Part shown: in pieces, positions 34,865 through 60,817 of the stretch | Numbering within the stretch: the stretch's first letter is position 1 | How the letters are laid out: each line of letters opens with the position of its first letter | Assembly (NCBI RefSeq): GCF_025148125.1 | Contig: NZ_CP102267.1 | Span: forward strand, 1,808,501 to 1,872,500 | DNA length: 64,000 bases | Reading direction: 5' to 3' | Source: Blautia wexlerae DSM 19850 | Lineage (GTDB): Bacteria > Bacillota > Clostridia > Lachnospirales > Lachnospiraceae | The notes under the pieces: generated by a model | Database searches by the model: none | What the model saw: only the letters and a program-made list of their open reading frames with translations | Told to the model about the DNA's origin: nothing | Made by a program: the position numbers and the translations under genes

Positions 34865-35030
34865 GGGGTCAGGTATCGGTAATTTTCTATAAAGAAAATT
34901 TAAAAGTTTTATAAAATATTCGCCGCACTATTTGTGCGGCAGTCATCCAAGGGGGAATCCCTGCGTGGTGTGTGATAGACAAGTCAGGCACTATTAAAAT
35001 CAGTGAGTTTTTCCCCGTGGGAGGTTGAAA

Positions 35031-36419
35031 ATGTCATATAAAGCAAATGTATATAATGTAATGATTGCCTCTCCATCTGATGTGGCGAAGGAACGAGCAA
35101 AGGTTGTGGAGGCTTTGGCGGAGTGGAATCGCCATAACACAGCGGAGAGAAAATGCGTGTTTCTTCCATTGAGATGGGAAGAAGATTCTGCCGCCCGTAT
35201 GGGATGTCCGCCACAAGAGACGCTGAATCGCCAGCTCTGTGAGCGGAGTGATATGCTGATTGCGATATTCTGGACAAGGCTTGGGACACCGACAGAAGGT
35301 TTTGCCAGTGGCACGGTGGAGGAGATTGAATATCATCTGAAAGCGAATAAACCGGTGATGCTTTATTTTTGCGACAGAGACATACCGATGGATACGGACA
35401 GGACACAGTTGGAAAAACTAAAGGAATATCGAAAGTCCGTAGAAAATAAGGCATTGTATCATACTTTTAAAAGGGCCGCTGACTTAAAGAACCTTTTGCT
35501 GAATCAGTTGCGTACAGCAGTGATAACGGATGAACCGTTTGTGACGGATTGTAAGAAACTGGCATCGAATGAGAAGGAAGAAACGGATAAAAAGCGTCCC
35601 AATCTGTGGATAGAGATAAATGATGCGGATGAGATTCAGCTTATTCTGCCGAAGTTGCCAGTCCTGGATAATGTGGAGTATATGGATGAAAATATGTCTT
35701 TTGCCGTAACAGACCCCGATGTGCCTGAAATGACCTTTGAACTATTCGAACAGGATGCCAGAGATATCTTGAATCATAAGATTCCGAATGATTTGGAGAA
35801 TTGGGTAAGCGAAAAGGAATTAGCTGCATTTAAAAAGAGAATTCCGGATATAGAGGAGCTGGAAACATATCTGCGAAAATGGAAGATGTCTCTTTGCATG
35901 GAAAATGCGGTAGAGTTAAAGATTACGCTGCACAATGATGGAAAGGCGATGGCGGAAGAAATCTATGTGGACATGGACGAGCCGGAAAATGTATGGGTGA
36001 TTGATGAGGATGAGTGGGAATCTCTTTCGAAGTTTAGCACTATTTCAGACCCGTTCCATGCGGCCAGACAGAAGAAAGCCATCCATAAGATACCGTCCCT
36101 TGAGATGCAGAATGCGTTTGACTGTGCAAGCAGGGTATTTTTAGCTTCCGGTTTGGCGTATCCGTCAGAGCTGATGAATGTTCCGGTGTCGCTGCTTACA
36201 CCATTTAACAAAGATTTTTACCGTAGAGTGGAAGATGGAGATGTTGTACTGCATTTGGACAAGCTGCTGCAAGGAAGAATGGTTGAATTTAAAAAGATTT
36301 ATATGATTCCGAAGAAAGTGGGAGAAGCGGATATAAAAGTGGCTTATCAGTGTCGGCAGTTTCCGGATGCGGTAGTGGGGAAAATCAAGGTTGAAGTATT
36401 GGCAGAGGACACGGAATGA
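35031..36419 (+). CDS. DUF4062-domain protein
   Basis: 462 aa. The N-terminal ~100 residues carry the DUF4062 signature: VMIASPSDVAKERAKVVEAL, RMGCPPQETLNRQL, DMLIAIFWTRLGTPTEGFAS, GTVEEIEYHLKANKPVMLYF. DUF4062 is a TIR-like Rossmannoid domain found at the front of many STAND-type conflict proteins, where it is thought to act as effector or adaptor. The rest (about 170-462) is a long mixed domain I do not recognise, with no P-loop. GGGAGG stands 6 bases before the ATG. It overlaps the VanZ-like gene by 4 bp. Confidence 0.8.
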   Translation: MSYKANVYNVMIASPSDVAKERAKVVEALAEWNRHNTAERKCVFLPLRWEEDSAARMGCPPQETLNRQLCERSDMLIAIFWTRLGTPTEGFASGTVEEIEYHLKANKPVMLYFCDRDIPMDTDRTQLEKLKEYRKSVENKALYHTFKRAADLKNLLLNQLRTAVITDEPFVTDCKKLASNEKEETDKKRPNLWIEINDADEIQLILPKLPVLDNVEYMDENMSFAVTDPDVPEMTFELFEQDARDILNHKIPNDLENWVSEKELAAFKKRIPDIEELETYLRKWKMSLCMENAVELKITLHNDGKAMAEEIYVDMDEPENVWVIDEDEWESLSKFSTISDPFHAARQKKAIHKIPSLEMQNAFDCASRVFLASGLAYPSELMNVPVSLLTPFNKDFYRRVEDGDVVLHLDKLLQGRMVEFKKIYMIPKKVGEADIKVAYQCRQFPDAVVGKIKVEVLAEDTE

Positions 36420-36943
36420 TAGAGATTATTTTGCATGATATCTGCGATACATTTCCATATCTGAAATATGGATTGGCGGCTGCAGTTTGTACTGCCCTGG
36501 CTTTAACAGTATTAAACCACAGTCGAATCATGGACAAGGAAAAGCGGAGCAACTATGTTTCGCTGCTAGGTAAGAGTATGTTTCTGGCATTTTACGGAGC
36601 GGTTTTGCTTCAGGTCACACTGCTGTCACGAGAACCGGGAAGCAGAACTGCCGCTGATTTGATTCCTTTCAGCACCTGGGGAACAACAGCGCAGAGCAGA
36701 GCGCATGAGATTGAGAATATGATTATGTTCCTGCCCGTAGGGGTGTTTCTTCCGATGTTGCATAGAGGACTGCGGGAATTTCGCACAGCCGTTCTGGTGC
36801 TGACTGGACTCAGCGCTGGCATTGAACTGATACAGTTTGTGACACAGCGGGGATATCTGCAGACAGATGATGTAATTATGAATGTACTGGGTGGTGTGGC
36901 TGGATATACATTTTGGCGATTGATTTTCAAATGGAGGAAATAG
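36416..36943 (+). CDS. VanZ-like membrane protein
   Basis: 175 aa with four or five membrane helices. The VanZ-family signature is present: LLSREPGSRTAADLIPFSTW, NMIMFLPVGVFLPML, GLSAGIELIQFVTQRGYLQT, DDVIMNVLGGVAGY. VanZ-like proteins are poorly understood; the type member gives low-level teicoplanin resistance. The ATG overlaps the DUF4062 stop, so the two are co-translated. A nucleotidyltransferase start follows 3 bp later, so the original operon was longer. Confidence 0.88.
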   Translation: MIEIILHDICDTFPYLKYGLAAAVCTALALTVLNHSRIMDKEKRSNYVSLLGKSMFLAFYGAVLLQVTLLSREPGSRTAADLIPFSTWGTTAQSRAHEIENMIMFLPVGVFLPMLHRGLREFRTAVLVLTGLSAGIELIQFVTQRGYLQTDDVIMNVLGGVAGYTFWRLIFKWRK

Positions 36944-36946
36944 CAT

Positions 36947-37114
36947 ATGAAAAACACAACATTACTGATTATGGCAGCCGGTATCGGCTCACGCTTCGGC
37001 GGAGGAATCAAGCAATTGGAGCCGGTGGGATTACATGATGAGATTATTATGGACTATTCCATCCATGATGCCATCGAAGCCGGATTTAACAAGATAATCT
37101 TCGTTGTCCGCTGA
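36947..37114 (+). pseudogene. Nucleotidyltransferase, N-terminal fragment
   Basis: 55 codons starting MKNTTLLIMAAGIGSRFGGG, with ATGGAGG upstream. The family normally has ~300 residues; here the frame ends in an abrupt TGA after IIFVVR, at the junction with foreign sequence at 37111. It would have activated a sugar or choline phosphate for surface polymers. Confidence 0.8.
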
Positions 37115-37139
37115 AGGCAGTGAGCATTGTGGTCAGACC

Positions 37140-37680
37140 GTGCGTCCAGCTAAGGGTATATAGTCCGGTGGGTGGAAGCCCCATCAAATAAGCTGCTAAC
37201 CACAGCATTTGAAGCGAGTCTTGAGTCTGTCGCGGTAACGTTGCAGGCTAAGCGTAGACAGCAAGATAACAGGGATAGCTATTGAGCACCGAAATCCTAA
37301 AGTCACCAGAGGGTCGACATCGTGGTCTGGATGGAAGACAACGTGTGTAAACAGAAAGTATGCCTGACAACCAGAAGAAGGATGGTAAAAGAAATGCAGG
37401 TAGTCGGAGGTCCGAATAGTACCAAGGAAGGTATGAACAAAAATAAATACCAGAGGGAAGTCGAGAGAGAACTGTTCCTCACAGTTCTGACCTGCGAAAC
37501 CATATCAAAGAGGAATAGGGGAGAAGTCTGGAAGAAAACATAAACGCTCTTATAGAACGTCTAAAGAAAAAGTCCTATAAGCCGAAACCAGCAAGGCTGG
37601 TGGAAATGCAGAGAAGTAAATCTTCTGTTAGTGAAGATGAGAACATGCAGATTAAAAGAGATGATTGCAAAATTTTTCAG
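37140..37680 (+). mobile_element. Group II intron remnant (5' ribozyme domains plus scraps of maturase)
   Basis: It begins GTGCGTCCAGCTAAGGGTAT, the characteristic GUGCG 5' end of group II introns, directly after GGTCAGACC (37131-37139). Some 400 bases of structured domain I-III-like sequence follow, then a short in-frame RT start scrap (NALIERLKKKSYKPKPARLVE) fused at 37607 to the maturase segment also found at 1271-1330. The RT core and domains V-VI are not seen, so it cannot splice or move. Confidence 0.75.
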
Positions 37681-37725
37681 GAAGTTCACGTTACCTATGT
37701 TCTTAATGAAGGGTGAGGAATGTTA

Positions 37726-38241
37726 ATGTCGCTATGGTATGTAATGCAGGTGCGGGCAGGTACTGAAGAAAATGCCCGATGCCAGTGTCTGCGGTTAATC
37801 AGCAGTAATATATTGGAACACTGCTTTGTTCCATACTATCAGCAGAAGAAGCGGTTTCAGGGTGAGTGGCATATTCAGGAAACAGTACTTTTTCCGGGAT
37901 ATGTGTTTTTGGTTACTTCTGATTTGAAACAGCTTATGGATAGTCTCAGAAAAGTAACAGGAATGATCAGATTATTGAGGACAGGGGAACAAATTGTTCC
38001 GTTATCAGGAGAGGAAGTGGATTTGCTTCTGAAACTGGGAAGAGAAGAACAATTGGTACGCATGTCTACAGGAGTTATTGAGAATGCTTATGTCAAAGTA
38101 TTTGATGGACCATTAAAGGGTATGGAAGATTGTATAAAGAAGATTGACAGGCATAAGCGAAAAGCCCATATTGCTATAGAAATGTTTGGAAGGAGCATGG
38201 ATGTAGAGATTGGATTGGAGATTATTTCTAAGATTAAATGA
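37726..38241 (+). CDS. loaP: LoaP-type NusG paralog (processive transcription antiterminator)
   Basis: 171 aa. The NGN domain starts SLWYVMQVRAGTEENARCQC and contains CFVPYYQQKKRFQGEWH and LFPGYVFLVTSD, followed by TGMIRLLRTGEQIVPLSGEE. The C-terminal KOW domain is VKVFDGPLKGMEDCIKKIDR + HKRKAHIAIEMFG. This is the specialised NusG layout of LoaP, which loads on RNA polymerase at an RNA hairpin in the 5' leader and suppresses terminators across long operons. GGGTGAGG lies 7 bases before the ATG at 37726. It directly precedes the six-gene operon at 38609-48392, which has a leader hairpin and an internal terminator as expected for a LoaP target. Confidence 0.85.
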   Translation: MSLWYVMQVRAGTEENARCQCLRLISSNILEHCFVPYYQQKKRFQGEWHIQETVLFPGYVFLVTSDLKQLMDSLRKVTGMIRLLRTGEQIVPLSGEEVDLLLKLGREEQLVRMSTGVIENAYVKVFDGPLKGMEDCIKKIDRHKRKAHIAIEMFGRSMDVEIGLEIISKIK

Positions 38242-38299
38242 GACAGTCCGGTGATTTGGAATGAAATATGGCAATTTGACAGAAATTTCGCGAAAAATG

Positions 38300-38327
38300 T
38301 TGAATAATATTGGAAAATTGATATAAT
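38300..38327 (+). promoter_or_regulatory. Promoter ahead of the leader hairpin
   Basis: TTGAAT (38300-38305), 16 bases, TATAAT (38322-38327). Transcription from about 38334 would place the hairpin at 38353-38380 near the 5' end of the leader RNA. Confidence 0.5.
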
Positions 38328-38352
38328 ATAGTACATGGATAAAAGCGGAGGG

Positions 38353-38380
38353 CTTAAATCGTCGCAGTGTCGCGTTTAAG
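38353..38380 (+). promoter_or_regulatory. Leader RNA hairpin, candidate LoaP loading element
   Basis: CTTAAA pairs with TTTAAG (38375-38380); inside, a 4-base bulge and CGC/GCG enclose the loop AGTGTC. There is no U-run behind it, so it is not a terminator. Its location between loaP and a long operon is what LoaP targets show; sequence match to known elements is not verified. Confidence 0.45.
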
Positions 38381-38478
38381 AAGAGAAGTGGACATAGTAC
38401 TATTATATTTATTCACTTGTGACATAGTGGAATGGTACTTTGTACACTTTTTTTGTTGAAAAAGTCGAACATAAATCA

Positions 38479-38507
38479 TTGACAAAATTGGGTAACTGGT
38501 ATATTAT
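38479..38507 (+). promoter_or_regulatory. Strong sigma-A promoter of the PRTase/HSP90 operon
   Basis: Consensus TTGACA (38479-38484), 17 bases, TATTAT (38502-38507). The transcription start falls at about 38514, at the edge of the palindrome at 38518-38547. Confidence 0.75.
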
Positions 38508-38517
38508 TAAGTAATTT

Positions 38518-38547
38518 GCAAATGTGCATAAAAATATGCACATTTGC
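38518..38547. promoter_or_regulatory. Operator-like palindrome at the transcription start
   Basis: Perfect 13-bp arms GCAAATGTGCATA and TATGCACATTTGC around AAAA. A bound dimer here would block the promoter at 38479-38507. The half-site TGTGCATA recurs at 44909-44916, 44 bases before the XRE regulator gene, which suggests that regulator as the binder. Confidence 0.6.
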
Positions 38548-38585
38548 ATATTGTGTAGGGAGTGGTACAAGACAGAAAGGGAGCA

Positions 38586-38618
38586 ATGGATATAGCAGAA
38601 AGGGAGCAATGGATATGA
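38586..38618 (+). CDS. 10-codon upstream ORF in a duplicated ribosome-binding-site unit
   Basis: The 21-bp unit CAGAAAGGGAGCAATGGATA + T occurs twice, 23 bases apart (38573 and 38596). Each has its own Shine-Dalgarno and ATG. The first ATG gives MDIAEREQWI and its stop overlaps the second start region, so it could modulate translation of the PRTase-like gene. Confidence 0.3.
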   Translation: MDIAEREQWI

Positions 38619-40540
38619 CAGAAAGGAGCATATACAGTTTATATGAGAGAGATAAAAGAGGAAAACTGACGATCAGGGCATTGATAGATGTTTTAGACAA
38701 AGCGGTTGCTGAGAATGCACCGGTTATTTTTATGTGCCGAAAAGCATACTGGCTATACCGGAGTTTACGTAGCTGTCTTCGGGATTGGGATAAGAAATAT
38801 GGCAGTCTGGTGGTTTTGAGCAATCGTTTTGTCATTAAGGAATCCATAAGTACTTTAGATGATCAATATCATACTGTTTATGTATTTGATGATACTGTGA
38901 ATACAGGACGCTCTCTTTATCAGATATATGAATTCATCATGAGAATGAATCCGAATCTTGAGATTAAGATGGTTGTAGCATGTGCACCGGAATCCAAGCT
39001 GGAATTAAAGAATAAACTTATGATGCAGGAGGATGATTCTGCTTTAGTAGAAAGATTTTTTGAATCATTGACAATTTGCTATTATGTTGGTATTGATGAA
39101 ATAGGATGGATTTCGTCACAGGAAATTTTTATGTATCAGCAGGAGATGATACCATATGTGATAGAGCTTCCGTTTATCAGACCTGCTATTGAAGAAAATA
39201 GGGAAGAAACAACAGGTAATCCATATATTATCAGTTTTCAGCGAGAGATTTTCAGAGGATTGTGTGCTGCTGGAGGAACTCAATGGAAATATGTGGATAA
39301 CTCGTATTTATGGCCGGATCGCCTGGATTCTGTTACAGGTGACGAAGAGATAAAGTGCGGTTTTTTCCAATATTATAATCCATACGTAGTTAAGACTTTG
39401 GGAGATTATGCACCAGAGTTGATCGTTAAATGCAGATATGAGGAAGCAGGTGATAATGTACAGATGATATTTACGCCTTTTGCAGTGATGGATTCTATAA
39501 GCTTTGAAGATGCATGGGCAATCTTTAATTGTTTGTATATGAACACTAATTATCTGAAACAGAAGAAAAAGGTATATAGACAGTTAAAAGAAAAAGAAGC
39601 TGTAGAGGAGAACGCAGTTAGTATGAAGCAGTTAGGTATAGCTGTTTTTAGAGCGAATGTGTTTTTCTTTTCTTTATATGTGTATAGTGCATTTAGGACA
39701 ATGGTTTCTAAGGTTACGAATTGTCAACTAATGCTTGATCAGCAATTTATGGGTGAGAGTTTTTCGGAAGATTTTATTAAATATACAGGTAAATTAAGCG
39801 AATGGAAACCGGAAGAATTTCTTGAACGTATTCGAAATTTGAAACCAGTTACAAAGATTCTGAGACAGAATGAGTTCAGGAATATTGAATATGAACATAT
39901 TAAAAATGATATTCCGGGATTACTTGCTCAGATTAGACTTGAGATTCTTAGAAAAAAGAGACAAAAAGCGGATAATATATTTACACCTATAGAAGAAATA
40001 GAGGATTATGTTTTTCATAAAACATCAGATAAGGACTTTCAGACAAGAAAGCAGATGCTTTTGAGTGTTATTCTTCAGATGACAGACCAGAGTGTGATTG
40101 GAAACAGTTTGAGAGTAGAGGATAATATTATTTATCGAGGATATCGCTATGGCGAGAATAGTGATGTTGTTTTGCCGTTTCGTAATTCATATATTCAATT
40201 TATTGTGGAAGTTTTCTATCATAATTGTGAAAAAATCTGTCAGTATGACAGTAAGAAGAGCAGACGACTTTATTTTAATCTTATCTCATATATGTTCCAT
40301 GAACTGGAAAGTTGGATGGAAGATCATGGCTATTTAAATGTGTTTGTATCTGCGGAGGAACTGGAATGGGGAAGTTTATATTACAGTGATGAACGTACAG
40401 ATATGGACACACTCATAAAAAATAAGAGAATGCTTATGCAGGATAACAGAGATAGACTGATGGAGAGAATTTTTCGTAAATGGATAGATGAATTTTCTGA
40501 TTCATGGGGAGAAGATTTGAAGTATATTGGAATTTTGTAG
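38609..40540 (+). CDS. Phosphoribosyltransferase-like protein, first gene of a predicted conflict operon
   Basis: 643 aa. The N-terminal ~200 residues show a type I PRTase fold: APVIFMCRKAYWLY, then the PRPP-binding loop VYVFDDTVNTGRSLYQIYEF (about 90-109, acidic pair D94-D95 and TG at 99-100). The remaining ~440 residues are mostly alpha-helical without motifs I know. PRTase-like proteins with long extra regions occur in predicted bacterial conflict systems, often next to HSP90-like and HD proteins (established from comparative genomics, as I recall). Biosynthetic PRTases are about 200 aa, so nucleotide salvage is unlikely. Start at 38609 from GGGAG; it is the second of two repeated start units. 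Confidence 0.7.
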   Translation: MDMTERSIYSLYERDKRGKLTIRALIDVLDKAVAENAPVIFMCRKAYWLYRSLRSCLRDWDKKYGSLVVLSNRFVIKESISTLDDQYHTVYVFDDTVNTGRSLYQIYEFIMRMNPNLEIKMVVACAPESKLELKNKLMMQEDDSALVERFFESLTICYYVGIDEIGWISSQEIFMYQQEMIPYVIELPFIRPAIEENREETTGNPYIISFQREIFRGLCAAGGTQWKYVDNSYLWPDRLDSVTGDEEIKCGFFQYYNPYVVKTLGDYAPELIVKCRYEEAGDNVQMIFTPFAVMDSISFEDAWAIFNCLYMNTNYLKQKKKVYRQLKEKEAVEENAVSMKQLGIAVFRANVFFFSLYVYSAFRTMVSKVTNCQLMLDQQFMGESFSEDFIKYTGKLSEWKPEEFLERIRNLKPVTKILRQNEFRNIEYEHIKNDIPGLLAQIRLEILRKKRQKADNIFTPIEEIEDYVFHKTSDKDFQTRKQMLLSVILQMTDQSVIGNSLRVEDNIIYRGYRYGENSDVVLPFRNSYIQFIVEVFYHNCEKICQYDSKKSRRLYFNLISYMFHELESWMEDHGYLNVFVSAEELEWGSLYYSDERTDMDTLIKNKRMLMQDNRDRLMERIFRKWIDEFSDSWGEDLKYIGIL

Positions 40541-40557
40541 CAAATAACTATATAAAA

Positions 40558-40590
40558 AGACTTAACGCGATTGTTAGGTCTTTTTTTATT
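40558..40590 (+). terminator. Intrinsic terminator inside the operon
   Basis: AGACTTAAC pairs with GTTAGGTCT (9 bp, one G-T) around GCGATT, followed by seven Ts. It stands between the first and second genes with only about 75 bp separating them, so downstream genes need read-through. Confidence 0.75.
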
Positions 40591-40615
40591 ACAAAAAATA
40601 GAGGTGGTGTTTTTA

Positions 40616-41353
40616 GTGAAACGTAGTATACGGTTATTTATTGCGGCGATTCAGAATTTTTATATGGAATGTACTATTAAACTGATGGATATGGGGAAAG
40701 GTTGTATTCATCCTGAGGAGTATTATGTTCCAGTGTATTTATATCCGGAATTATTTCGAAAGGCAGCGGCGTGTAATAATATGGCATGGGATGAGGAAGT
40801 ATTTTTGAAGGAGATAGATTATAATAAAAATCAGAAATATTACTGCACAAATCCATTGTTAAAAAAGATTGCAGAAAGTCTTAAAGATAATGGTAGATCC
40901 GGATATAAAATAACAGAATGTTTTAATGAAACAGAATTAAAACCGGAAACAGATGTTATTATTTTGTCTGCCTGTATGTTTCGGGAAGGGGAGTACCTTA
41001 TCAGAAGATGGTGTGAGATATGCGAGAGATATGCAGATGGATTGTATTTAGAAGTGAAAGAAAATGGGTTGGTAATTATATATTATCTCTTGTTTCAGAC
41101 TGATGCTGATATGAAAATCAATGAATCTTATCGTCAGAATTATCGGGATCTCTGGGAAGCAGTGACAGATGAAGCAGATAGAATACGTATAGAAGAGCTA
41201 TTTGTACTTCATTTTTTTGCAATAATTGAGAAATTAACAGAACAAATTGATTTGGCGGAAGAAGGTAATAAATTATCATCTGGAATCAGTATATGCAAAA
41301 ATCAAATTATTAAAGGGATTCGTGACAATGTATTGAATATAACCGAGATGTGA
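40616..41353 (+). CDS. Unknown helical protein, second gene of the conflict operon
   Basis: 245 aa from GTG 40616, which has GAGGTGG in front; a TTG at 40571 lies inside the terminator and is less likely. Mostly alpha-helical (SIRLFIAAIQNFYMECTIKL, ELFVLHFFAIIEKLTEQIDL), no signal peptide, no motif I recognise. Its stop overlaps an upstream GTG of the next gene and lies 12 bases from that gene's ATG, so it is tightly coupled to the HD-HSP90 gene. Confidence 0.6.
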   Translation: MKRSIRLFIAAIQNFYMECTIKLMDMGKGCIHPEEYYVPVYLYPELFRKAAACNNMAWDEEVFLKEIDYNKNQKYYCTNPLLKKIAESLKDNGRSGYKITECFNETELKPETDVIILSACMFREGEYLIRRWCEICERYADGLYLEVKENGLVIIYYLLFQTDADMKINESYRQNYRDLWEAVTDEADRIRIEELFVLHFFAIIEKLTEQIDLAEEGNKLSSGISICKNQIIKGIRDNVLNITEM

Positions 41354-41364
41354 GGAGAAAGACT

Positions 41365-44300
41365 ATGAATGATAATGATATGATAATCACTAACGTAATT
41401 AATGAAGGAAATCAGAACAATGTTAAGATATGTATTAATGCGGATACTTATCTGGAGAAGATTTTTTCTCAGAAATGTGCATCGGATAATAGAAAAATAC
41501 AGATTTATTATGAGTGGCAGAATACTAAAAACAGATATATACATCAGACTTCCATCATAGCGCATGATTTTCCTAATTATAGTGTGCATGATCAGGAACA
41601 TTCCAGAACGATAATTGAATCTATAGAGATGTTATTGGGAAGATGGAGAATAGAAAGATTCGGAATTGGAAATGCATGGCTCTTGCTGAATGCGGCGTAT
41701 GGTCATGATATTGGAATGGTGATTCAGCATCAGGAAGCTTTGGAACTCTGGCGGGATGACAGGGAATTTCAGAAGTATCTGGATAATATTTGTAATAATC
41801 CGGAATCTGATATGCAGGAAGCACTCCAATATTGTCGCCAGCTACATAATGTACTGCATAATAAAGAAAAATTAGATGGAATTGATGAGAGCGAAAACGT
41901 ATTTCAGATATATGAACTGACAAACGACTGGCCTGTTGTTGTTAAGAAAAATGTGATGATGATTACGGCAGATTATATTAGATGCCATCATGAGGAACGT
42001 AGTAAAAAGTTTTTTGAGAATCTGTCTAAAACTATAGGTATAGAAGTCGCTGAAAACCGTCTTTATAATTTACTTGGAAAAGTAGTATATTCTCATGGTA
42101 AAGATCTGGATTATATTTTTTCGGAACTGCCTAAGGAGACGATTGGGTTTGGAACTGAAAGAATACATCCGCAGTTTATAGCGTTACTGCTTCGTATTGG
42201 AGATTTGCTGGACCTGGATAATAACCGGTTTGATAGTATGCTTCTGCAGCATTTTGGGGCATTGCCAAAAACAAGTATGAAACATTTGCAGAAACATTTA
42301 TCCATCTCACATTTTCTTGTCACAGAGCGAAAGATTCAGGCAAAAGCGTATACTACTGATTATGAAGTGTGCAAAATTATGGATCAGTGGTTTCAGTATA
42401 TTAGAGAGGATATCGGGAATATTACTTCTAACTGGAATCGTGTGGCACCGAAAGAAATGGAAGGATGCACATTCAATTATTGTAATCTTGAGATTTATCT
42501 GAATGGTGAAAAATACGAGAGTTTTGGAAAGGCGCGTTTCGAAGTTGATAACAAACGTTTTATGAGTGTCCTTATCGGTGATAAGCTGTATGAAGAACAA
42601 TTGGTATTTCTGCGAGAATATATACAGAATGCTATGGATGCTACGAAGCTGATGTTATGGTTGAAATGGAAACAAGAAGAAAATATGCATGTTTTTACTG
42701 CTGATGAAAATGGACATGTAGATGAAACTCTTTCTAGTCTGGATTACGTTAATTTAAAAGACTATGCCATTAAAGTTGGAGTGGAGCTTGTTCAGGAAGA
42801 TGAATATGCCGTTTCAGATGTAGGAAAGAAATCTTGTTCTGAAGTATTGAGGGTCCATATTATTGATTCAGGTGTAGGTATGGATGAAGAATGCCTTAAG
42901 GCTTTGGCTGTGATTGGAACCGGATGGAGCGGACGTAAGAAATACTTTGAAGAGATAGGACGTATGCCGATATGGATGCAGCCAACAGGTAGTTTTGGGA
43001 TAGGTATTCAGTCTGGTTTTATGATGACAAACCGGATCAGAATTATAACAAGAGGCATGAATGAGAAACATGGATTGGATATTCAGTTGTATTCACCCAG
43101 ACAGCTGGGAAAGATTAATTATGTTTTCTTATCAGATAATCGGGTTGGTACAGAACTGATATTGGATGTTGACTGGGCGGATTTCTTGAGTAAACTTCAG
43201 GAATCAGGACATTATGAGAGTATTTTAAATACAGGTAATGGAGTTTTTGATTATGATGGAATATTACGGGATATAAAAAAATGTCTCACAAGATATATTG
43301 GTGAGGTGATTCCGAATAGTTTTATTCCTGTTCGTGTGGCAATAATATCGAAAAAGTTATCCAAATCTGAATCCGGTGAAGTAGTTGATTCTTATGTGCA
43401 GCAATTTCTTGATAAGGATTCCGGGACTATATTAAGAGACACTGGTAGTAATATAGATTATATCTTAAAGAATGACATGAGTGAGGCTTGTTTCTGGATG
43501 AGAGATGAACAAGTTTTTGTTCAAATGGAAAATGATGCAGAATTGTTTTCTGATCAGATGATAAGCGATAAGTTCTGTTATAAGGGTGTTCTGGTAAGGA
43601 ATAAAACTATTAAAAATAGAAAGGAAGACAATCTGATATCCAGATATATTCCGGTGAGTATGGATATTATGGGAATGAATGCCTCTGATTGTCTATTGAT
43701 AAGTAGAAGTCATTTTACTGAGAAAATGAATGGCAGGTTTGAGGAACTGGCATGGAAATGCTTTAAATTATATGTGGAGATTGTAGCAAAACATATAAAG
43801 AAACTTGGACTTAAAAATCAGTTGTCTGATGTAGTGAAAAATTCCAGGAGTCCATATTTATTATTAATGGGGGTTCTTTATTTTGGGAAAAATTCGGATG
43901 TAGCGTATATTTGTGAACAAAATGTATGGGCAGACACAACATATTTTATGCAGCATTTGAAAAAAGATACAAAGAAATATAAGCTGGAGGATAGTGTCCA
44001 TGTTACTTTCAATGATGTATACGAATGGTTTTCATCAGAAGATAAAATGATTGTATGGAAGGTTAACAGGACTGATCTTCAGAGTAAAGCTGAAAAAATT
44101 TTGGATATTGTTTCCATAATGAATGAAGAAGCTTCTGAAGAAGTGGAAAAAACCAGTAAATATGGGCTGAATATAAGAGAAAAAACAGAAAATTATTTAA
44201 AGAAAACTGTAAAAACGAAAGCAGATCCGAATTATATTATTACCGATCCGATTCTGGTCAATATTCTTGAAGAATTCATAGAGAAAAAGAGTGTTAATAG

Positions 44301-44838
44301 AGAATTGTTTAAAATTCAAAGTATTGATCAGGAAGACATGGTTCTGTCAGTGTATGATCCAGGATACAACTTGAAAAAGGAACAGAATACTGACACAGAA
44401 GAACAAAACGATTTAAGAGAAATCTTGCTTATGGCAATAAAACAAGAAAAATATTATATTGTGGTGGGTAAGGAATATGACAGAAAATTTTCAGAATTAT
44501 ATGTCAGGAAAGCTCCGCTTAACAATGATTTAACAGAAGAGTATCTCGAAAATCATAAAGTAATACTGTTTCCATTTAATGTAGATATTTACGGAGTGAT
44601 GAAAAAATGGTTTATTAAGATTAATATTCCTGATATAGATACAGAAAATAACGGAATAGAGAGGGAGCAGAACTTTTGGGATTATGTGTTAAATAACCCG
44701 GCATGGGAGCGGGCAGTGCAGTGGACCATGAGGCATGGTGTAAATAAAAAGAGTTTTCAGCAGAGAGGTGCTATTACACAACAGTACAAAGAATTATGTA
44801 AAGAGTTTCTGAAGGCATATATAGATTGTTGCAAATGA
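41365..44838 (+). CDS. HD-domain plus HSP90-like GHKL ATPase protein (1157 aa)
   Basis: Residues ~50-350 form an HD-type domain: VHDQEHSRTIIESIEML (H75-D76, H79), AAYGHDIGM (H114-D115), DYIRCHHEERS (H208-H209) and LLLRIGDLLDLDNNR (D280). Residues ~385-700 are an HSP90-like ATPase: N-box LREYIQNAMDATKL (E418, N422), VHIIDSGVGMDEEC (D501-x-G-x-G) and PTGSFGIGIQSGF (542-547). The C-terminal ~450 residues are unassigned. HD plus HSP90 fusions are known only as predicted components of bacterial conflict systems; the HD part may hydrolyse a nucleotide or phosphate ester, the HSP90 part may be the ATP-driven sensor or chaperone for effectors. GAGGAG precedes the ATG at 41365. Confidence 0.8.
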   Translation: MNDNDMIITNVINEGNQNNVKICINADTYLEKIFSQKCASDNRKIQIYYEWQNTKNRYIHQTSIIAHDFPNYSVHDQEHSRTIIESIEMLLGRWRIERFGIGNAWLLLNAAYGHDIGMVIQHQEALELWRDDREFQKYLDNICNNPESDMQEALQYCRQLHNVLHNKEKLDGIDESENVFQIYELTNDWPVVVKKNVMMITADYIRCHHEERSKKFFENLSKTIGIEVAENRLYNLLGKVVYSHGKDLDYIFSELPKETIGFGTERIHPQFIALLLRIGDLLDLDNNRFDSMLLQHFGALPKTSMKHLQKHLSISHFLVTERKIQAKAYTTDYEVCKIMDQWFQYIREDIGNITSNWNRVAPKEMEGCTFNYCNLEIYLNGEKYESFGKARFEVDNKRFMSVLIGDKLYEEQLVFLREYIQNAMDATKLMLWLKWKQEENMHVFTADENGHVDETLSSLDYVNLKDYAIKVGVELVQEDEYAVSDVGKKSCSEVLRVHIIDSGVGMDEECLKALAVIGTGWSGRKKYFEEIGRMPIWMQPTGSFGIGIQSGFMMTNRIRIITRGMNEKHGLDIQLYSPRQLGKINYVFLSDNRVGTELILDVDWADFLSKLQESGHYESILNTGNGVFDYDGILRDIKKCLTRYIGEVIPNSFIPVRVAIISKKLSKSESGEVVDSYVQQFLDKDSGTILRDTGSNIDYILKNDMSEACFWMRDEQVFVQMENDAELFSDQMISDKFCYKGVLVRNKTIKNRKEDNLISRYIPVSMDIMGMNASDCLLISRSHFTEKMNGRFEELAWKCFKLYVEIVAKHIKKLGLKNQLSDVVKNSRSPYLLLMGVLYFGKNSDVAYICEQNVWADTTYFMQHLKKDTKKYKLEDSVHVTFNDVYEWFSSEDKMIVWKVNRTDLQSKAEKILDIVSIMNEEASEEVEKTSKYGLNIREKTENYLKKTVKTKADPNYIITDPILVNILEEFIEKKSVNRELFKIQSIDQEDMVLSVYDPGYNLKKEQNTDTEEQNDLREILLMAIKQEKYYIVVGKEYDRKFSELYVRKAPLNNDLTEEYLENHKVILFPFNVDIYGVMKKWFIKINIPDIDTENNGIEREQNFWDYVLNNPAWERAVQWTMRHGVNKKSFQQRGAITQQYKELCKEFLKAYIDCCK

Positions 44839-44959
44839 AAGAAAAGGGTATGACTGGACAGAAACGGTTATATGAGAATATTAATCACTAAAAATAATGC
44901 AATAAGGTTGTGCATATATGAGTGAAATTTAAAGAATTAATTTGGAATCAGGGGGGAGT
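44839..44959 (+). other. Intergenic region before the XRE regulator
   Basis: 121 bases with no gene. It contains TGTGCATA at 44909-44916, matching half of the operator palindrome at 38518-38547, and poor promoter-like AT-rich sequence. The regulator may have a secondary promoter here. Confidence 0.4.
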
Positions 44960-45979
44960 ATGGATAAATCCGAAAAAGTAAAAGATAAACTTATATGTCT
45001 GGATCAGATATGGATAAGAGTAGAAGAATTGATGAAAAAACAACGGATTTCACAGGTGGATATGGTAAGGTTATGTCAGAGAAAAGGATATTCTATTCAG
45101 CAGCCGGAAATTTCAAAATTAAAAAGCGGAAAATGTAAAATCACATTATATCAGTTGATGGCATTTGCAGATGTCCTGGAGGTTGGTACGGATTATCTGA
45201 TCAATGGATCAGTGAATGAAAATACAGTAGTGTTTCCGTTAAATAACAGATTTATTACAAATGCAGATGATGAAGAGTTTAAAGGCATATTAGGAGAATA
45301 TTATACGCTTTTTCATAGTACAGGTGAAATGGAGGATAAATGGCTTAAGGGGAAACTGTCGTTGAACAGATCTTCAGAGGGAATATGCCGTGCTGAGTTC
45401 ATATTATGGACGGGTGAGAAAAATCATACAGAACAGAATGTTGCAAAGAAATATCAGGGACAGGTTATTATTTCCAAAAAGCAAAAATCCATGTATTGTA
45501 TTCTGATTAATAATATGATAAGTGAAATGTGTTTTATAGCATTCCGGTTCAGGCCTTTCCAGACGATAGATATGGCATGCAGAATAGGGCTTGTTCTTAC
45601 TTTTTCATCAGGAGAAGACAGAACACCTGTTGTTCATAAGATGTTTTTGTCACGTAAGAAGATTGATAAAGAAATGCATAATGCGATTGCGCCAACTTTA
45701 CAATTTACAAATAAGGACACTTTGATTTCGAGAAAAAAGCTCCAAAATCTGAGATGTACTTACCCGGAATGGCAGGATGAAATTGACAAAATTCTACAAC
45801 AACAGCCAGAAGAATATTATATGTTATATGAAAGTATGCAGGGAATATTAAAACTGAATATGAAAGAGAAGCTGCGAATGAAGGGATTGATTAAGGAATG
45901 TGCAGATATGTCATATGTAGTATCTTTAACAAAAGAAGATGATGATGGAGCCTTTATGATACAGCGGGAGGAAAATTAG
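44960..45979 (+). CDS. XRE-family transcriptional regulator with a large C-terminal domain
   Basis: 339 aa. Residues ~15-75 are a Cro/CI-type helix-turn-helix (IWIRVEELMKKQRISQVDMV, then QQPEISKLKSGKCKITLYQL + MAFADVLEVGTDYLI). The ~250-residue C-terminal part is beta-rich then helical, and could sense a ligand or protein partner. GGGGGGAG stands 5 bases before the ATG. It lies inside the operon rather than divergent to it, and probably autoregulates through the palindrome at 38518-38547. Confidence 0.75.
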   Translation: MDKSEKVKDKLICLDQIWIRVEELMKKQRISQVDMVRLCQRKGYSIQQPEISKLKSGKCKITLYQLMAFADVLEVGTDYLINGSVNENTVVFPLNNRFITNADDEEFKGILGEYYTLFHSTGEMEDKWLKGKLSLNRSSEGICRAEFILWTGEKNHTEQNVAKKYQGQVIISKKQKSMYCILINNMISEMCFIAFRFRPFQTIDMACRIGLVLTFSSGEDRTPVVHKMFLSRKKIDKEMHNAIAPTLQFTNKDTLISRKKLQNLRCTYPEWQDEIDKILQQQPEEYYMLYESMQGILKLNMKEKLRMKGLIKECADMSYVVSLTKEDDDGAFMIQREEN

Positions 45980-46017
45980 CTGGTATAGTTCGAAGAAATG
46001 TGTGAGGGTAAGAAAAG

Positions 46018-47427
46018 ATGAGCTTGGAGCGTATAGGAAGAAAAAAAGCGGATAATGGAACATATAGAGATATATTTTCAGCAAAAGAGATTCGTAGTTT
46101 GCTGTATTATCAAAATGCCGGAAAGAATATTGTGTTATCGGATAACGAGAAGCATTTAGAAAAATTCTACGCTATAGAAAATGCCTATGAAGTAATTAAT
46201 ATGTTGATGTTTGATGACATTGGCAGTGAGCAGGTTCGATTATCAGCAGAAGGAAGATGGATGGATCCGGACATTCTGAATAATATGAATGAGCTTTTGG
46301 ATGTATATTGTAATTTATATTCAGCAATCTGCAAGTATACATATCTGATTAAAAAAAGAACGGCATATACGTATCGGGATGACAGACGTTACACATATCT
46401 TCACATGAAGACCCATAAGTTTAATGAATCATTTCTGTCGGCAACATTGAACGAGAAGAAACAGGTGAATTTATTTCAGGAAAAAGAGGATCTGACATTT
46501 TTTGAGTTTAAGGTTGATCAAAGTATAGAGTATCTGGATATAAATGAGGTATTAGGAGAAATGAGTAAGTATCCAGATGAAAGAGAAATTCTTTTTCCGC
46601 CATTTATGAATCTTGAATTAAAAAGAATGGAATTGACACCGGATGAAAGAATAATGCGGGGAATCAGGAATAAGCCGCCTTATGGAAAATATCTGGTTGT
46701 ATTTAAGGATTCAAAGATATCTCCCACTGTATTGACTGAAAAAATAAGAGATGAGCTGACAGAACTTAGAAAAATGATTTTAGACCCTTCTTCAATTGAG
46801 AATGCGAAAGCTGTCTGGGAACAGGTCAGAAGGAATAATTATAATGTGAAAAATATTGATAATATTAAGTATTATCTTGAATGGAAAAAGAATCTTCAGT
46901 TGTATATAAGAAAATGTTATTCTGTTATCAAGTGGGAGATTATGAGCTTTAAAGGTCGGGAGTGTATGTTTAGAAATGAACTGAAGGACCAGATTAGTAA
47001 TGCAAATAAAAAACGAGAAATGTACGAAAACAGAGTACAGTGGATTTTTGGGACAGAGATATTTTTTGGAGTTTTAGCAGGAATATTTCTGGCATTTAAT
47101 GCGATAGAGTATCATCCTGAACGGTTTAAAATAATGGCCATATGTGCACTTGGTATAGTTGCGTTTCAGGCAGGGATATCAAAGGTCTTTTCATTGACAG
47201 ATAAATTGCATCAGAGAACAAGTATATTTTTGCAATATGATGAACTGAGAATGAAATGGGAATTTGAAAAAGTAAAGGATCCAGAGAGACTAAATGAGTA
47301 TATTCAAAGAATGCTGGATATTTCGATTTTAGATAATGAACTCTGCAAACAGTATACAGAAAACAGGATTAACAATATGCATAAATGGGAAAAAAACATG
47401 GAAGAAAAATCTGAATGGAAGAAATGA
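46018..47427 (+). CDS. ADP-ribosyltransferase-like protein with C-terminal membrane hairpin
   Basis: 469 aa. Residues ~100-200 match the R-S-E clade of ADP-ribosyltransferases: an Arg-rich strand (TAYTYRDDRRYTYLHM; R120-R124), KFNESFLSATLN (S138, S141), FFEFKVDQSIEYLDI, and PDEREILFPPF giving E188-x-E190, the ExE pair of arginine-type enzymes. The paralog at 47517 keeps the same order and spacing. Residues ~343-361 and 371-389 are two transmembrane helices, followed by a helical tail. It would modify a target at the membrane using NAD. The assignment rests on motifs only; a SLATT-like membrane module is an alternative reading of the C terminus. Confidence 0.6.
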   Translation: MSLERIGRKKADNGTYRDIFSAKEIRSLLYYQNAGKNIVLSDNEKHLEKFYAIENAYEVINMLMFDDIGSEQVRLSAEGRWMDPDILNNMNELLDVYCNLYSAICKYTYLIKKRTAYTYRDDRRYTYLHMKTHKFNESFLSATLNEKKQVNLFQEKEDLTFFEFKVDQSIEYLDINEVLGEMSKYPDEREILFPPFMNLELKRMELTPDERIMRGIRNKPPYGKYLVVFKDSKISPTVLTEKIRDELTELRKMILDPSSIENAKAVWEQVRRNNYNVKNIDNIKYYLEWKKNLQLYIRKCYSVIKWEIMSFKGRECMFRNELKDQISNANKKREMYENRVQWIFGTEIFFGVLAGIFLAFNAIEYHPERFKIMAICALGIVAFQAGISKVFSLTDKLHQRTSIFLQYDELRMKWEFEKVKDPERLNEYIQRMLDISILDNELCKQYTENRINNMHKWEKNMEEKSEWKK

Positions 47428-47516
47428 TTATTGTGGAGTTCTTTTAGTCAGATAGTTGGAAAATCAGTAATCCAGAGTTTGGCATATTATTAGGTGTAGA
47501 AGGGAAATGTGATAGC

Positions 47517-48392
47517 GTGGTAACGAAAAAAGAACTTGATATGTTAAGATTTTATGGTGGAGATATACGAAAAAGAACAGAAGAGGGAAAGCTTTTGATA
47601 ATAAATAGTTCTGAGAATTCTAAAGACCCGAAAGATTTATTGTGGAGAGATAAAGATGCGTACCGTACATTGAATGCGTTACTCTTTGATGGTTATGAAA
47701 ATGAAAAGGAACGTATATTTCAGGAACATCATCAGCTAAATCCGATATTTATTGAACTACTTGAAGAAACACTTGCTATATACACAGGGATTTTTGCAGT
47801 AATGTGTCAGAATAAAGAAAAGCAGTCAGTTATTTCAACAGTAAGGAGAGTAGATCGTAAAGCTTCTTTAAGTGCATATACCAAAGGATATACAGAGTCT
47901 TTTGTTTCGTGTAGTAGGGGAGGTTTTGAATCAGATTTTTCTAAAAAGAATCAGATAATTCTTCTGGAAATTGAAACTTCAGAAAATAGTCTTTATGTAG
48001 ATTATCAGCAGGCTTTGGGAGCGGAGTATGCGAAGTGGGATGAGCAGGAAGTATTGTTTCCTCCATTTCTTCCTCTGACTATGGAAGAAATGGAGTTGAG
48101 TAAACGAGAGAAATTGAGTATACATGATATGCATGGCAATTCTCCGTGTGGAAAATATTTGTTGAAGTTGAGGGAGTTTCCGGATTATAGAAAGATTATA
48201 ACCTGTTCACAGGAGAAATTGCTCGAAAAATTGTTTTCCGGAAAAAAAGAAGCAGCTACATGTCTGCAGAAAATGAATAGCGGTCAATGGGATGAAGATT
48301 TCCAGGAATATATAAATTGGAAAAAGAATCTTCATGATTATTTGAAACTCTTGTATTCTGCCATGTGGTGTGGAACGGAAGAACAGAAATAA
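47517..48392 (+). CDS. Second ADP-ribosyltransferase-like protein (soluble paralog)
   Basis: 291 aa, GTG start with GAAGGGAA upstream. It aligns along its length with the first ~305 residues of the preceding gene: ISTVRRVDRKASLSAY (R110-R111), GYTESFVSCSRGGFES (S128, S131), IILLEIETSENSLYVD, WDEQEVLFPPFLPL (E176-x-E178), then EYINWKKNLHDYLKLLYSAM against YYLEWKKNLQLYIRKCYSVI. It lacks the membrane part. Two diverged copies in tandem suggest effectors with different targets or an effector and a regulator. Last gene of the operon; an integrase remnant follows. Confidence 0.6.
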   Translation: MVTKKELDMLRFYGGDIRKRTEEGKLLIINSSENSKDPKDLLWRDKDAYRTLNALLFDGYENEKERIFQEHHQLNPIFIELLEETLAIYTGIFAVMCQNKEKQSVISTVRRVDRKASLSAYTKGYTESFVSCSRGGFESDFSKKNQIILLEIETSENSLYVDYQQALGAEYAKWDEQEVLFPPFLPLTMEEMELSKREKLSIHDMHGNSPCGKYLLKLREFPDYRKIITCSQEKLLEKLFSGKKEAATCLQKMNSGQWDEDFQEYINWKKNLHDYLKLLYSAMWCGTEEQK

Positions 48393-48424: not shown

Positions 48425-49262
48425 TTGATGGATTCCTACAAGGACAATCTTGATACAAGGTGCTCTTCTGGTGAGATATGCAGGGAATATCATCGATTCC
48501 AACTGCGCGTTATGCGTATGCTGTCTTCGCTTGCGGAAAGAGGCATCGTTGATTTTTCGAGCACTAAATCTCATCCGCTCAAGTACATTGTATCCAACGA
48601 GACAAACAACCTTGTTGAAATGATACTTGACAGTTACCCTGTCAGTCCTGCAACAAAAAACGATCTCCGGGCTCCCACCAGACATTTTTTGTGGTACGCT
48701 GAACAGATCGGGATAAAGCCACAATTCATTGATGATACTATAGTCATGTCATTTCTGATTGACGAAGTACCGGCTTCGAACGGAGACAGTACCGGACGTA
48801 CGTTAAGGTGTGTAAAGTACGCCACGGAATACCTTCGGGCTCATGGGAATGATTGCCTGCACCGTGATTATACTCTTCTGAAGCTGAAAAATGATCACTG
48901 ACGTATTATCCCGGCCTATTCTGAAGAAGAGATTTCGGGAATAGCCCAGGCAGCTGATACAGCTAGCACCATTGGAAAGAGGAATCTTGCGATTATACTT
49001 GTTGCATACTGCACAGGGCTTCGCGGAATCGACATCATAGGCATTAAGTTATCAGATATAGACTGGCACAATCACAAAGTGTCAGTAGTGCAGTCAAAAA
49101 CTCATACGCCAATCGTATCTGAACTGAACGGTGCCACCTTGAACGCCCTTGCTGATTATATCCTCGACTGGCGTCCTAAATGCGATATTCCTGAGGTTTT
49201 CGTAACAGTAAAGGCTCCGTATTCCGTATCGAAGACTGTCAAAGGGATTTGGCAGAAAGACT
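48425..49262 (+). pseudogene. Tyrosine recombinase/integrase, interrupted and truncated
   Basis: The N-terminal 158 codons (to 48901) contain the SAM-like core-binding region. A TGA at 48899-48901 interrupts. The same frame then continues RIIPAYSEEEISGIAQAADT and LVAYCTGLRGIDIIGIKLSD, the Arg-box of the catalytic domain. The gene is lost at 49266, at an IS-end palindrome, before the HxxR and Tyr boxes. It is a different recombinase from the intact 30535-31452 and may be the former integrase of the neighbouring operon. Confidence 0.75.
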
Positions 49263-49265
49263 CTA

Positions 49266-49637
49266 GGGTCAGACCTCAATGTGGTCAATTTACCGTCAAC
49301 TTAAGGAAAATCGTCAGATTTTATTCTGATTATATACTATGGTTTACCGCAAAAATGCAGGATTAATCCTCAACCAGTTAGAAAATTCACCAAAAAGGCG
49401 CACTTAAATAAAGCTTAAATGTGACAGTGTTTTTATTTACAAGGCAGCTTTCTTATTTCTAAAATGTGAACGTCCTTTTGACTTTAATTTTTTTCTTGGA
49501 AATGATCTACCGGGAAGGAGCTGTGAACGGCACCGGACAGCTTCTCAATAACTGAGAGTTCAGACAGATCACAGAGGATCTTTGGAAAGATGATCTTGAT
49601 CCGTCCGATGATAAATGCGCGATTAGCCTGATAATAT
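49266..49637 (-). mobile_element. Relic of an IS4-family element (right end)
   Basis: GGGTCAGACCTCAATGTGG + TCAA is a degenerate terminus. Further in, the minus strand encodes YQANRAFIIGRIK and LSVIEKL, then ...KGRSHFRNKKAA-like sequence, clearly related to the C terminus of the intact transposase (7730-7944) but diverged and missing everything upstream of 49637. It truncates the integrase. Confidence 0.75.
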
Positions 49638-53179: not shown

Positions 53180-54313
53180 ATGGTCAAGATATTTGCTTTG
53201 CCTGCGAATGAAGGAGATTTTATTTGGGTTGCATATGGTGAAAATGAAGTATATAGTCACATCTTAATTGATGGTGGAACTGATGAATGTGGGGAGGAAT
53301 TTGCATCAATTATTAGTATTATTGATGAACGTAAAGAAAAAATAGAAGCACTTGTGCTAACTCACGTTGATTATGATCATATACAAGGAGCGCTAGAGGG
53401 CATTTGTAGAATTTCAAATGATATATTGGATAGAACAGTGAAACGAATTTATTTTAATACATACCAAGGTATACATAGGAATCTGAAAGGGACAGGCGAA
53501 ATTTTGGAAAGCTCTGTTTGCATAGAAGATCAGATTCGTGTAAACCAGAATTATAAAGAATATGGTGTAAAGGATGGAATTAAATTTGGGGAGTTATTAT
53601 CAGAGAAAGGATTGAAAGATCGTTTGGTTGATTATGTTGTATATGGACAACAAGCTGTTTTACCTAATGGCGCGACAATGCGATTTATTAGTCCTGGAGA
53701 AAAAGAATTAATTAAGTTTGCAAATGAATGGGAAAAGTATGAAAGAGAAAACGAGTATGTTCAATATGCAAGTAATCTTGAGATGGTGAAAAAGAATTTA
53801 GCTGATTTAATGCAAGAAAAATTGTTGAGTGATTCATCTCCCAATAATGCTTCTTCTATAGCCTTTATTTTTGAATATCATAGTATAAAACTGGCTTTTT
53901 TAGGAGATGCAAAACCATCAGTCTGTTTGCAAGGAATTAAAAAAATCAACGACGCAGATCATTTCGAGGTCGATTTATTAAAATTGTCACATCATGGCAG
54001 CAGAAGTAACACTTCCGATTCTTTGCTAAAAACAATTAGGACGAATAATTATTTATTGAGTACAAACGGTCATCATAAGAAGGTACCCAGTAAAGTTGTG
54101 CTTTCTCATCTGCTGAAAAATGCAGGTAAAAAAGATATTAATCTGTATTGTAATTATGATTGGTATAATACAGAATATCATGAAAGATATTTTACTATTG
54201 AGGATCGTAGAGCGTTTATAGATACAAAGAAACTATCTTTGTATCTGTTAGATGACCAAGCTCTAGAGATAAAGGATGGATGTTATATATATGGAGAATA
54301 CGGAATGTTTTGA
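53180..54313 (+). CDS. Metallo-beta-lactamase-fold hydrolase (Lamassu-type effector component)
   Basis: 377 aa with GGAGAAA before the ATG. The fold is clear: ILIDGGTDECGEEF, then VLTHVDYDHIQG (H62-x-D64-x-D66-H67, a variant of HxHxDH as in ComEC-like hydrolases), KLAFLGDAKPS, DLLKLSHHGSRSNTSDSLL and YLLSTNGHHKKVPS. Enzymes of this class cleave phosphodiester or ester bonds with metal ions. It overlaps the protease gene by about 20 bp and forms a three-gene operon with protease and SMC-like ATPase, the composition of hydrolase/protease-type Lamassu systems. Confidence 0.82.
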   Translation: MVKIFALPANEGDFIWVAYGENEVYSHILIDGGTDECGEEFASIISIIDERKEKIEALVLTHVDYDHIQGALEGICRISNDILDRTVKRIYFNTYQGIHRNLKGTGEILESSVCIEDQIRVNQNYKEYGVKDGIKFGELLSEKGLKDRLVDYVVYGQQAVLPNGATMRFISPGEKELIKFANEWEKYERENEYVQYASNLEMVKKNLADLMQEKLLSDSSPNNASSIAFIFEYHSIKLAFLGDAKPSVCLQGIKKINDADHFEVDLLKLSHHGSRSNTSDSLLKTIRTNNYLLSTNGHHKKVPSKVVLSHLLKNAGKKDINLYCNYDWYNTEYHERYFTIEDRRAFIDTKKLSLYLLDDQALEIKDGCYIYGEYGMF

Positions 54314-60811: not shown

Positions 60812-60817
60812 ATGTGT

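Follow-up and report, generated by a model that had tools for sequence, protein, structure and literature searches.

An HD-HSP90 operon of Blautia wexlerae with phosphoribosyltransferase-fold and ADP-ribosyltransferase partners: a candidate multi-effector anti-phage system

In 2023, Nicastro et al. reportedly predicted immune systems that contain HD-CE or PRTase-CE domains or centre on HSP90, with attack on nucleotides as an outcome and HSP90 as an analogue of the STAND switch. PADLOC lists a second group of relatives under its DRT (defence-associated reverse transcriptase) systems, where the UG24 type comprises the reverse transcriptase (RT) RT_UG24 together with RTas1299 and RTas1808. Clover, a system taken from the 2023 HD-CE/HSP90 prediction work, is described in the accessible part of its report as an HD-type dNTPase with a nucleotidyltransferase (NTase) that acts in anti-phage defence (PMC12265719). 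Here we analyzed a 64,000-nucleotide stretch of the genome of Blautia wexlerae DSM 19850, a member of the Lachnospiraceae (the window; contig NZ_CP102267.1, positions 1,808,501 to 1,872,500), in which a six-gene operon joins a fused HD-CE and HSP90-type ATPase (HD-HSP90) to a phosphoribosyltransferase (PRTase)-fold protein and two predicted ADP-ribosyltransferases (ARTs).

The six genes follow a loaP gene and all lie on the plus strand (38609-48392), in agreement with the initial annotation. Gene 1 of the core module encodes the PRTase-fold protein (38609..40540; 643 aa), which has a phosphoribosyl pyrophosphate (PRPP) loop. The next gene encodes a small protein of about 245 aa without a detectable family (40616..41353); its longest open reading frame (ORF) begins at 40571, and the start used here was picked by eye from an upstream GAGGTGG. 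The central gene encodes the HD-HSP90 protein (41365..44838; 1157 aa), and it is followed by a gene for an XRE-type regulator with a long C-terminal region (44960..45979; 339 aa from its ATG, longest ORF from 44942). The last two genes encode an ART with a SLATT-like part that has two transmembrane segments (46018..47427; 469 aa) and a second ART that lacks this part (47517..48392; 291 aa).

We interpret the operon as a multi-effector abortive anti-phage system with the HD-HSP90 protein as its switch, and we give this reading a probability of about 0.55. The folds and families, catalytic residues, gene order, recurrence of PRTase with HD-HSP90 and of ART with HD-CE, and island setting were computed; the function is inferred, and phage sensing, the order of events, substrates, toxicity and repression are put forward as predictions. 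A defence role for the operon is very likely; with less assurance, we expect that HSP90 probably acts as the switch and, to a similar degree, that the ARTs act as effectors. The HD-HSP90 protein would be an ATP-driven conformational switch, with a GHKL N-domain and an HSP90-like middle domain, and would sense infection by itself or together with the small protein, which evolves fast. When triggered, it would release several outputs: the phosphohydrolase activity of its HD-CE part and the PRTase beside it, both with nucleotides or PRPP as predicted targets, and the ARTs, which are predicted to use NAD+. One ART would be held at the membrane by its two-helix SLATT-like segment, and this segment may in addition form a pore. 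The XRE protein would repress the unit, perhaps at a palindrome behind the promoter. The predicted outcome is shutdown of the cell.

Domains and conserved sites

Pfam identified HD-CE on residues 74-351 of the HD-HSP90 protein (E 4.5e-43; 148.3 bits against a cut-off of 27; residues numbered from a start at 41350), and the HSP90-like part begins near residue 385. We aligned the window protein with 32 of 86 homologues (alignment A1); the HD residues H75, H79, H114, D115 and D280 were invariant in all 33 rows, as were R417, E418, N422, D425, D501, G503, G505, G545, G547 and R781 in the HSP90 part. The A1 profile aligned to E. coli HtpG (E 1.5e-13) with E418 at the Glu of the HtpG N-box and R781 at the Arg of the middle-domain SRE motif, the latter in a low-confidence stretch and seen in both alignments made. 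The HtpG equivalents of E418 and R781 are catalytic, and the conserved residues include the catalytic Glu, the Mg-binding Asn and the G boxes of a GHKL (Bergerat) ATPase. A profile search of PDB returned 147 sequences at E ≤0.01 (best 4e-21), and the 60 top-listed were all HSP90-family chains. Based on these conserved residues and alignments, both enzyme sites, HD and ATPase, look intact. The NCBIfam cut-offs for HtpG/HSP90 chaperones were not reached (42.6 bits versus 455 and 39.8 versus 371); judged by its sequence, the protein is HSP90-like and no HtpG orthologue. Elsewhere in the same genome, a second gene (G000:C1:2962148-2962606) scored at the HD-CE cut-off of 27 bits, and a third place scored below it.

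The PRTase-fold protein matched PF00156 with an E value of 0.0054, under the cut-off. Its AlphaFold model was confident (pLDDT 88.5), and 45 of the 50 top Foldseek rows obtained with this model were HPRT-, OPRT- or PyrR-type enzymes; by its fold and PRPP loop, the protein belongs to the PRTase superfamily. Membership in PRTase-CE (PF24390) was considered and rejected: a search of the genome up to E 10 gave seven weak matches, none at the PRTase gene, and the family was also absent from a Pfam scan of the PRTase protein up to E 1. In PADLOC, neither the PRTase nor the small protein had a match, and the HD-HSP90 protein matched only the HD part of RT_UG24, so that no exactly corresponding named system was found, in agreement with the initial annotation.

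Both ARTs matched RTas1808 in PADLOC (E 2.2e-94 and 7.2e-120). In the first (R120-S141-E188xE190), the Arg, Ser and ExE motifs were invariant in 31 rows, and the first Glu was nearly invariant after seven rows were added; the R-S-ExE motif is also kept in the second. AlphaFold gave a confident model with an ART fold for the first ART, a fold that would have escaped Foldseek used alone. The SLATT-like part of this protein scored 37.4 bits against NF033634, just under the cut-off of 41, and its two hydrophobic stretches are positioned as expected; the first ART is probably anchored in the membrane by this part. Profiles and conserved motifs, together with the confident models for the PRTase and the first ART, thus bear out the PRTase-like, HD plus HSP90 and ART-like assignments of the initial annotation.

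Gene neighbourhoods and the two modules

We read HD-HSP90 neighbourhoods in 80 named loci, the best among 146 found. A PRTase gene was a neighbour in eight of them (L019, L020, L022, L023, L024, L025, L028 and L096). A gene of 207-227 aa adjoins the PRTase gene in five of these eight, lying between the PRTase and HSP90 genes in L019, L022 and L096 and after the PRTase gene in L023 and L024; the PRTase-adjacent position holds a 152-aa ORF in L025 and no ORF of at least 70 aa in L020 and L028. Aligned with six positional equivalents, the window's small protein showed no similarity by blastp or hhalign, and a profile HMM gave 1.7 bits.

Among genomes of the same family, an RTas1808-type ART was found in 8 of 397 (E 1e-10) and HD-HSP90 likewise in 8 of 397 (E 1e-20). 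The two occurred together in three genomes (G000, the window's own; G162; G231), with a hypergeometric p of 3e-4, or 0.005 without the window. In seven of the eight ART-bearing genomes an HD-CE-type gene adjoins the ART, with evidence of uneven strength, and the partners vary among RT, HSP90 and others; in the window, the ART neighbours are HD-HSP90 with PRTase. Locus L099 (G162) contains an ART, an RTas1299 gene (E 9e-31), RT_UG24 with HD-CE, and HD-HSP90 in one operon, whereas L100 (G231) contains an ART, a separate SLATT-like gene, HD-HSP90 (own profile, E 3e-144) and an IrrE-like gene. The ART of L106 (G148) accompanies an RT_UG24 match over the full model, and L107 (G247) has a gene of equal size and order in which only our own profile detects HD (E 7e-16). 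In L108 (G371), Pfam identified RVT_1 and HD-CE in the gene beside the ART; in L109 (G111), HD-CE pieces lie in two frames, one slightly over the cut-off at 27.9 bits and one under it at 20.2 bits. No HD-CE-type neighbour was seen in L110 (G375) with our own profiles, the sole scan made there. The small genes between ART and RT in L099, L106, L107 and L108 form one cluster. As a separate observation, L099 places both kinds of HD-CE trigger next to a single ART.

The HD-HSP90 tree comprised 102 rows, including 17 of the 86 homologues; we removed L104, which shares its contig with L090, as well as ORFs shorter than 700 aa and loci whose E value exceeded 1e-60. All eight PRTase-linked genes grouped with the window gene in a single set of 27 rows (support 99, drawn open). 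Between tree groups, which were chosen after the tree was made, a PRTase neighbour was present in 8/8 versus 0/71, with L021 left out as its contig was too short. L099 and L100 fell in a 19-row set (support 91, not starred); the remaining 17 rows of that set are without an ART label and include the nearest sisters of both, so ART presence along the HD-HSP90 family is patchy, and several origins are not proved; counted on labelled rows only, label changes numbered two for PRTase and one for ART. The neighbourhoods show two modules: PRTase with HD-HSP90, and ART beside an HD-CE-type gene.

Several results weigh against a single multi-effector system. An ART was found in none of the 80 HD-HSP90 loci at E 1e-4, 18 of which have less than 2.5 kb of sequence on one flank; in the window, the PRTase module may simply adjoin that of the ARTs. 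Of the 80 HD-HSP90 genes, 21 lack a close neighbour on the same strand, some of them at contig ends; therefore, the ARTs are not required for HD-HSP90 to be retained. The PRTase fold match is moderate (VIA Z), several distant PRTases have lost the Thr of the PRPP loop, and the XRE protein, which keeps the name given in the initial annotation, is weakly assigned. The widest intergenic gap of the operon (103 or 121 nt) lies directly 5' of the XRE gene and leaves room for a separate transcription unit. The expectation that the six genes are conserved together failed (8 PRTase and 0 ART neighbours among the best 80 loci). Co-occurrence of HD-HSP90 with ART, which had also been expected, was absent from these loci and present in the three family genomes, with ARTs otherwise arranged beside HD-CE-type genes.

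These points bear on a rival explanation, that two independent systems adjoin in a common island with separate mechanisms, one consisting of PRTase, small protein and HD-HSP90 and the other of an XRE-controlled ART-SLATT and ART. An XRE gene at the head of an effector pair is a common layout, the widest gap falls exactly 5' of this gene, and PRTase with HD-HSP90 occurs without a detected ART in all eight PRTase-bearing named loci. However, the recurrence of an HD-CE-type gene beside the ART in 7/8 ART-bearing family genomes argues for a link between the modules, as does a metagenome pair: the ART-SLATT homologue P0099 and the PRTase homologue P0133 share a longest contig value of 23,616 bases, for which about 0.03 coincidences are expected, the same contig being unproved. 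The coincidence check covered 25/86 HSP, 41/43 ART and 37/39 PRTase rows and found two shared values for HSP-PRTase, one for ART-PRTase and none for HSP-ART. We consider two separate systems unlikely, although less so than the other rivals below.

A second rival explanation derives the ARTs from a UG24 RT system, of which they would be remnants or components acting in trans, with RTas1808 as its accessory protein. Both ARTs match RTas1808, the HD region of the window HD-HSP90 protein matches that of RT_UG24, L099 joins ART, RTas1299 gene, RT_UG24 and HD-HSP90, and L106 joins ART, a gene similar by clustering to that of L099, and RT_UG24. However, an RT_UG24 search of the whole window genome yielded only the HD-HSP90 gene (model positions 699-918), and a UG24 RT acting in trans was rejected on this result; RTas1299 was matched by none of the ten window proteins scanned; and the ARTs beside RT_UG24-type genes (L099, L106-L108) are 284-323 aa long and, by length, without a SLATT part. 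Dependence of the window ARTs on an RT is largely refuted, and this explanation is highly improbable.

The varying partners of the seven HD-CE-type genes could also point to regulation as the primary role, which would be compatible with the multi-effector reading: a nucleotide signal produced or removed by HD-CE and PRTase would be received by the SLATT-ART, as in signal-gated pore systems. No operon protein matches a cyclase or nucleotidyltransferase family, however, and the SLATT-like part has no known signal; we regard such signalling as quite unlikely.

We tentatively suggest that HD-CE and an RTas1808-type ART form a conserved immune pair with an exchangeable trigger. The window operon would then be an RT-free relative of a DRT system with an HSP90 switch in place of DNA synthesis, an added nucleotide-attacking PRTase and one ART that has moved to the membrane through its fusion to a SLATT-like part. 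The trigger would be the RT in UG24, the HSP90 ATPase in the window and L100, both in L099, and another long protein in L109. If so, the HD-CE domain, rather than the RT, would be the part that addresses the effector.

The distribution of the parts was also surveyed more widely. Of 394 family genomes, the window's own was the one with a PRTase match, by a search that would miss relatives at ~22% identity; the ART was found in 1/392 order genomes and 1/331 class genomes, the window's own both times. Two of 60 genus genomes contain HD-HSP90, among them G733 (L113), and distant HD-HSP90 matches occur in four plasmid records and one phage record; the one plasmid context read has no PRTase or ART in its annotation. 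No plasmid relatives were found for the PRTase, the second ART or the L106 ART, and no relatives were found in viral contigs with P0142, the window HD-HSP90, A4 or P0099.

Other genes also recur near HD-HSP90. Type I restriction genes were identified in L032 (Pfam) and, by clustering, in L039, L040, L049, L061 and L062. Within the gene run of HD-HSP90, SLATT/DUF4231-like genes are present at L023, L076, L097 and L105 (Pfam on three of the four), and the HD-HSP90 genes of L097 and L105 are near-identical. In L046, L058, L090 and L091, HD-HSP90 is preceded by a protein of 737-766 aa, which carries its own HATPase domain (shown for L046), and a protein of 140-142 aa.

Regulatory sites and genomic setting

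The loaP gene (37720..38241, plus strand) encodes a NusG-paralogue antiterminator of 173 aa (NF033641, E 9.8e-53; 178.7 bits against a cut-off of 125). It is the sole LoaP match over the cut-off in the genome, and one further gene matches below it. Between loaP and the PRTase gene, all on the plus strand, lie a terminator-like hairpin with a T-run (38375..38462; RNA fold -29.6 kcal/mol, z -5.6), a promoter-like site, TTGACA-17-TATTAT (38479..38507; 11/12 positions, the top match of the region), and, directly 3' of it, a perfect 14-bp inverted repeat with an AAAA loop (38517..38548). Promoter-like sites overall are not above chance in the region (53 versus a shuffle mean of 49.7). The fold of 38508-38612 has a z of -5.1, and the palindrome is a candidate XRE operator or leader hairpin. 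A second terminator-like hairpin separates the PRTase and small-protein genes (40554..40585, plus strand; fold of 40545-40605 z -4.0, equalled by 1/200 shuffles). Both hairpins were missed by a simple scan; the second was also found in a further analysis.

According to the accessible part of a study of Bacillus velezensis, LoaP acts there through a UNCG hairpin and reads through terminators, and loaP adjoins operons for metabolites or polysaccharides (PMC12691694). We found no UNCG-type hairpin with at least five contiguous pairs at 36900-38700, and the AAAA-loop palindrome, considered as a LoaP leader element, is not of the described UNCG type. The two terminator-like hairpins would suit LoaP read-through, and that at 40554-40585 could be a control point for it. 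The initial annotation described the operon as headed by LoaP; adjacency stands as the link, with the hairpin and then the promoter-like site intervening, and LoaP control is putative and unproven. Two matches to animal miRNA families were below threshold and are attributed to chance.

The host genome is a single contig of 4,685,728 bases, and the six genes have a GC content of 0.32-0.35 versus 0.374 for the window. About 5 kb from the operon lies a Lamassu-type operon (53180-59257) that encodes an LmuA-like MBL-fold protein (E 8e-76), a second LmuA-like protein (E 2e-25) and an LmuB-like SMC-type ATPase (E 1.6e-116). Two STAND-like NTPases with TPR matches are encoded on the minus strand (13796-16864 and 24325-27648), the second with an Mrr-type nuclease domain; neither had a PADLOC match at 1e-5. 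A DUF4062-like protein (35025-36419; under the Pfam cut-off) matches the PADLOC candidate PDC-S60 in its N-terminal part. Because Lamassu, STAND-type and DUF4062/PDC-S60 genes occur in the same window, the defence setting of the proposed anti-phage system is supported, with its function a prediction.

Mobile-element remnants are also present. Downstream of the second ART gene are degenerate integrase-like pieces with interrupted frames (48425-49366; by reading, the first piece without a Pfam match) and a transposase gene. Beyond the Lamassu-type operon, a short ORF resembles the beginning of a group II intron RT (59325-59648; by reading only), and an IS21-type pair follows (60035-62362). Upstream of loaP, the start of a nucleotidyltransferase-like ORF read by eye (36946-37413) appears to be interrupted by the 5' portion of a group II intron, whose piece at 37175-37413 matches Rfam group-II-D1D4-6 (94 bits); no other intron family was listed at 36900-38700 up to E 1.

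Comparison with known systems

The part types of the operon are known or predicted in immunity, and their combination looks new. The six-gene set had no counterpart in PADLOC 2023 or in the literature searched, most subscription papers and the 2023 Nicastro paper being out of reach. The initial annotation had put the system forward as a candidate undescribed one; this holds for the set, which is unnamed in PADLOC, but less so for its parts, given that RTas1808 already appears among RT accessories and that HSP90/HD-CE systems were reportedly predicted in 2023.

The window operon resembles the systems reportedly predicted by Nicastro et al. 2023 (NAR 51:11479) in the fusion of HD-CE to an HSP90-type ATPase and in its PRTase-fold partner; unlike the PRTase-CE-bearing systems, its PRTase has no match to the PRTase-CE model. 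Beyond HSP90/HD-CE systems, the window adds ART-SLATT and ART partners, LoaP and the XRE protein. Compared with HtpG/HSP90, the central protein shares an N-domain with Bergerat motifs and, at low confidence, the middle-domain SR motif, whereas HD-CE stands in front and its bit scores are far under the chaperone cut-offs.

The two-transmembrane SLATT-like part is similar to that of SLATT-effector conflict systems, where it is C-terminal or a separate partner; unlike in those systems, it is fused to an ART and scores just under the NCBI cut-off. The ARTs differ from solved R-S-E class ARTs in their intracellular operon context, and a comparison of their profile with PDB sequences gave no clear match (best E 0.18). 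No secretion or binding part was seen in them, with no search aimed at such parts. The operon would place an R-S-E class ART with a SLATT-like membrane segment in an apparent intracellular defence operon.

Similar to Clover, the window has an HD-domain enzyme as a predicted anti-phage output on nucleotides; unlike in the window, HSP90, PRTase and ART go unmentioned in the accessible part of the Clover report (PMC12265719). The UG24 DRT systems share the ART family and the HD-CE domain with the window operon. In contrast to those systems, the window has no RT or RTas1299 match, an HSP90 ATPase replaces the RT, and one ART is fused to a SLATT-like part. The shared HD-CE domain and ART family tie HSP90/HD-CE switches to UG24 RT systems, which are usually listed apart, and offer a testable idea on the role of HSP90-type ATPases in phage defence.

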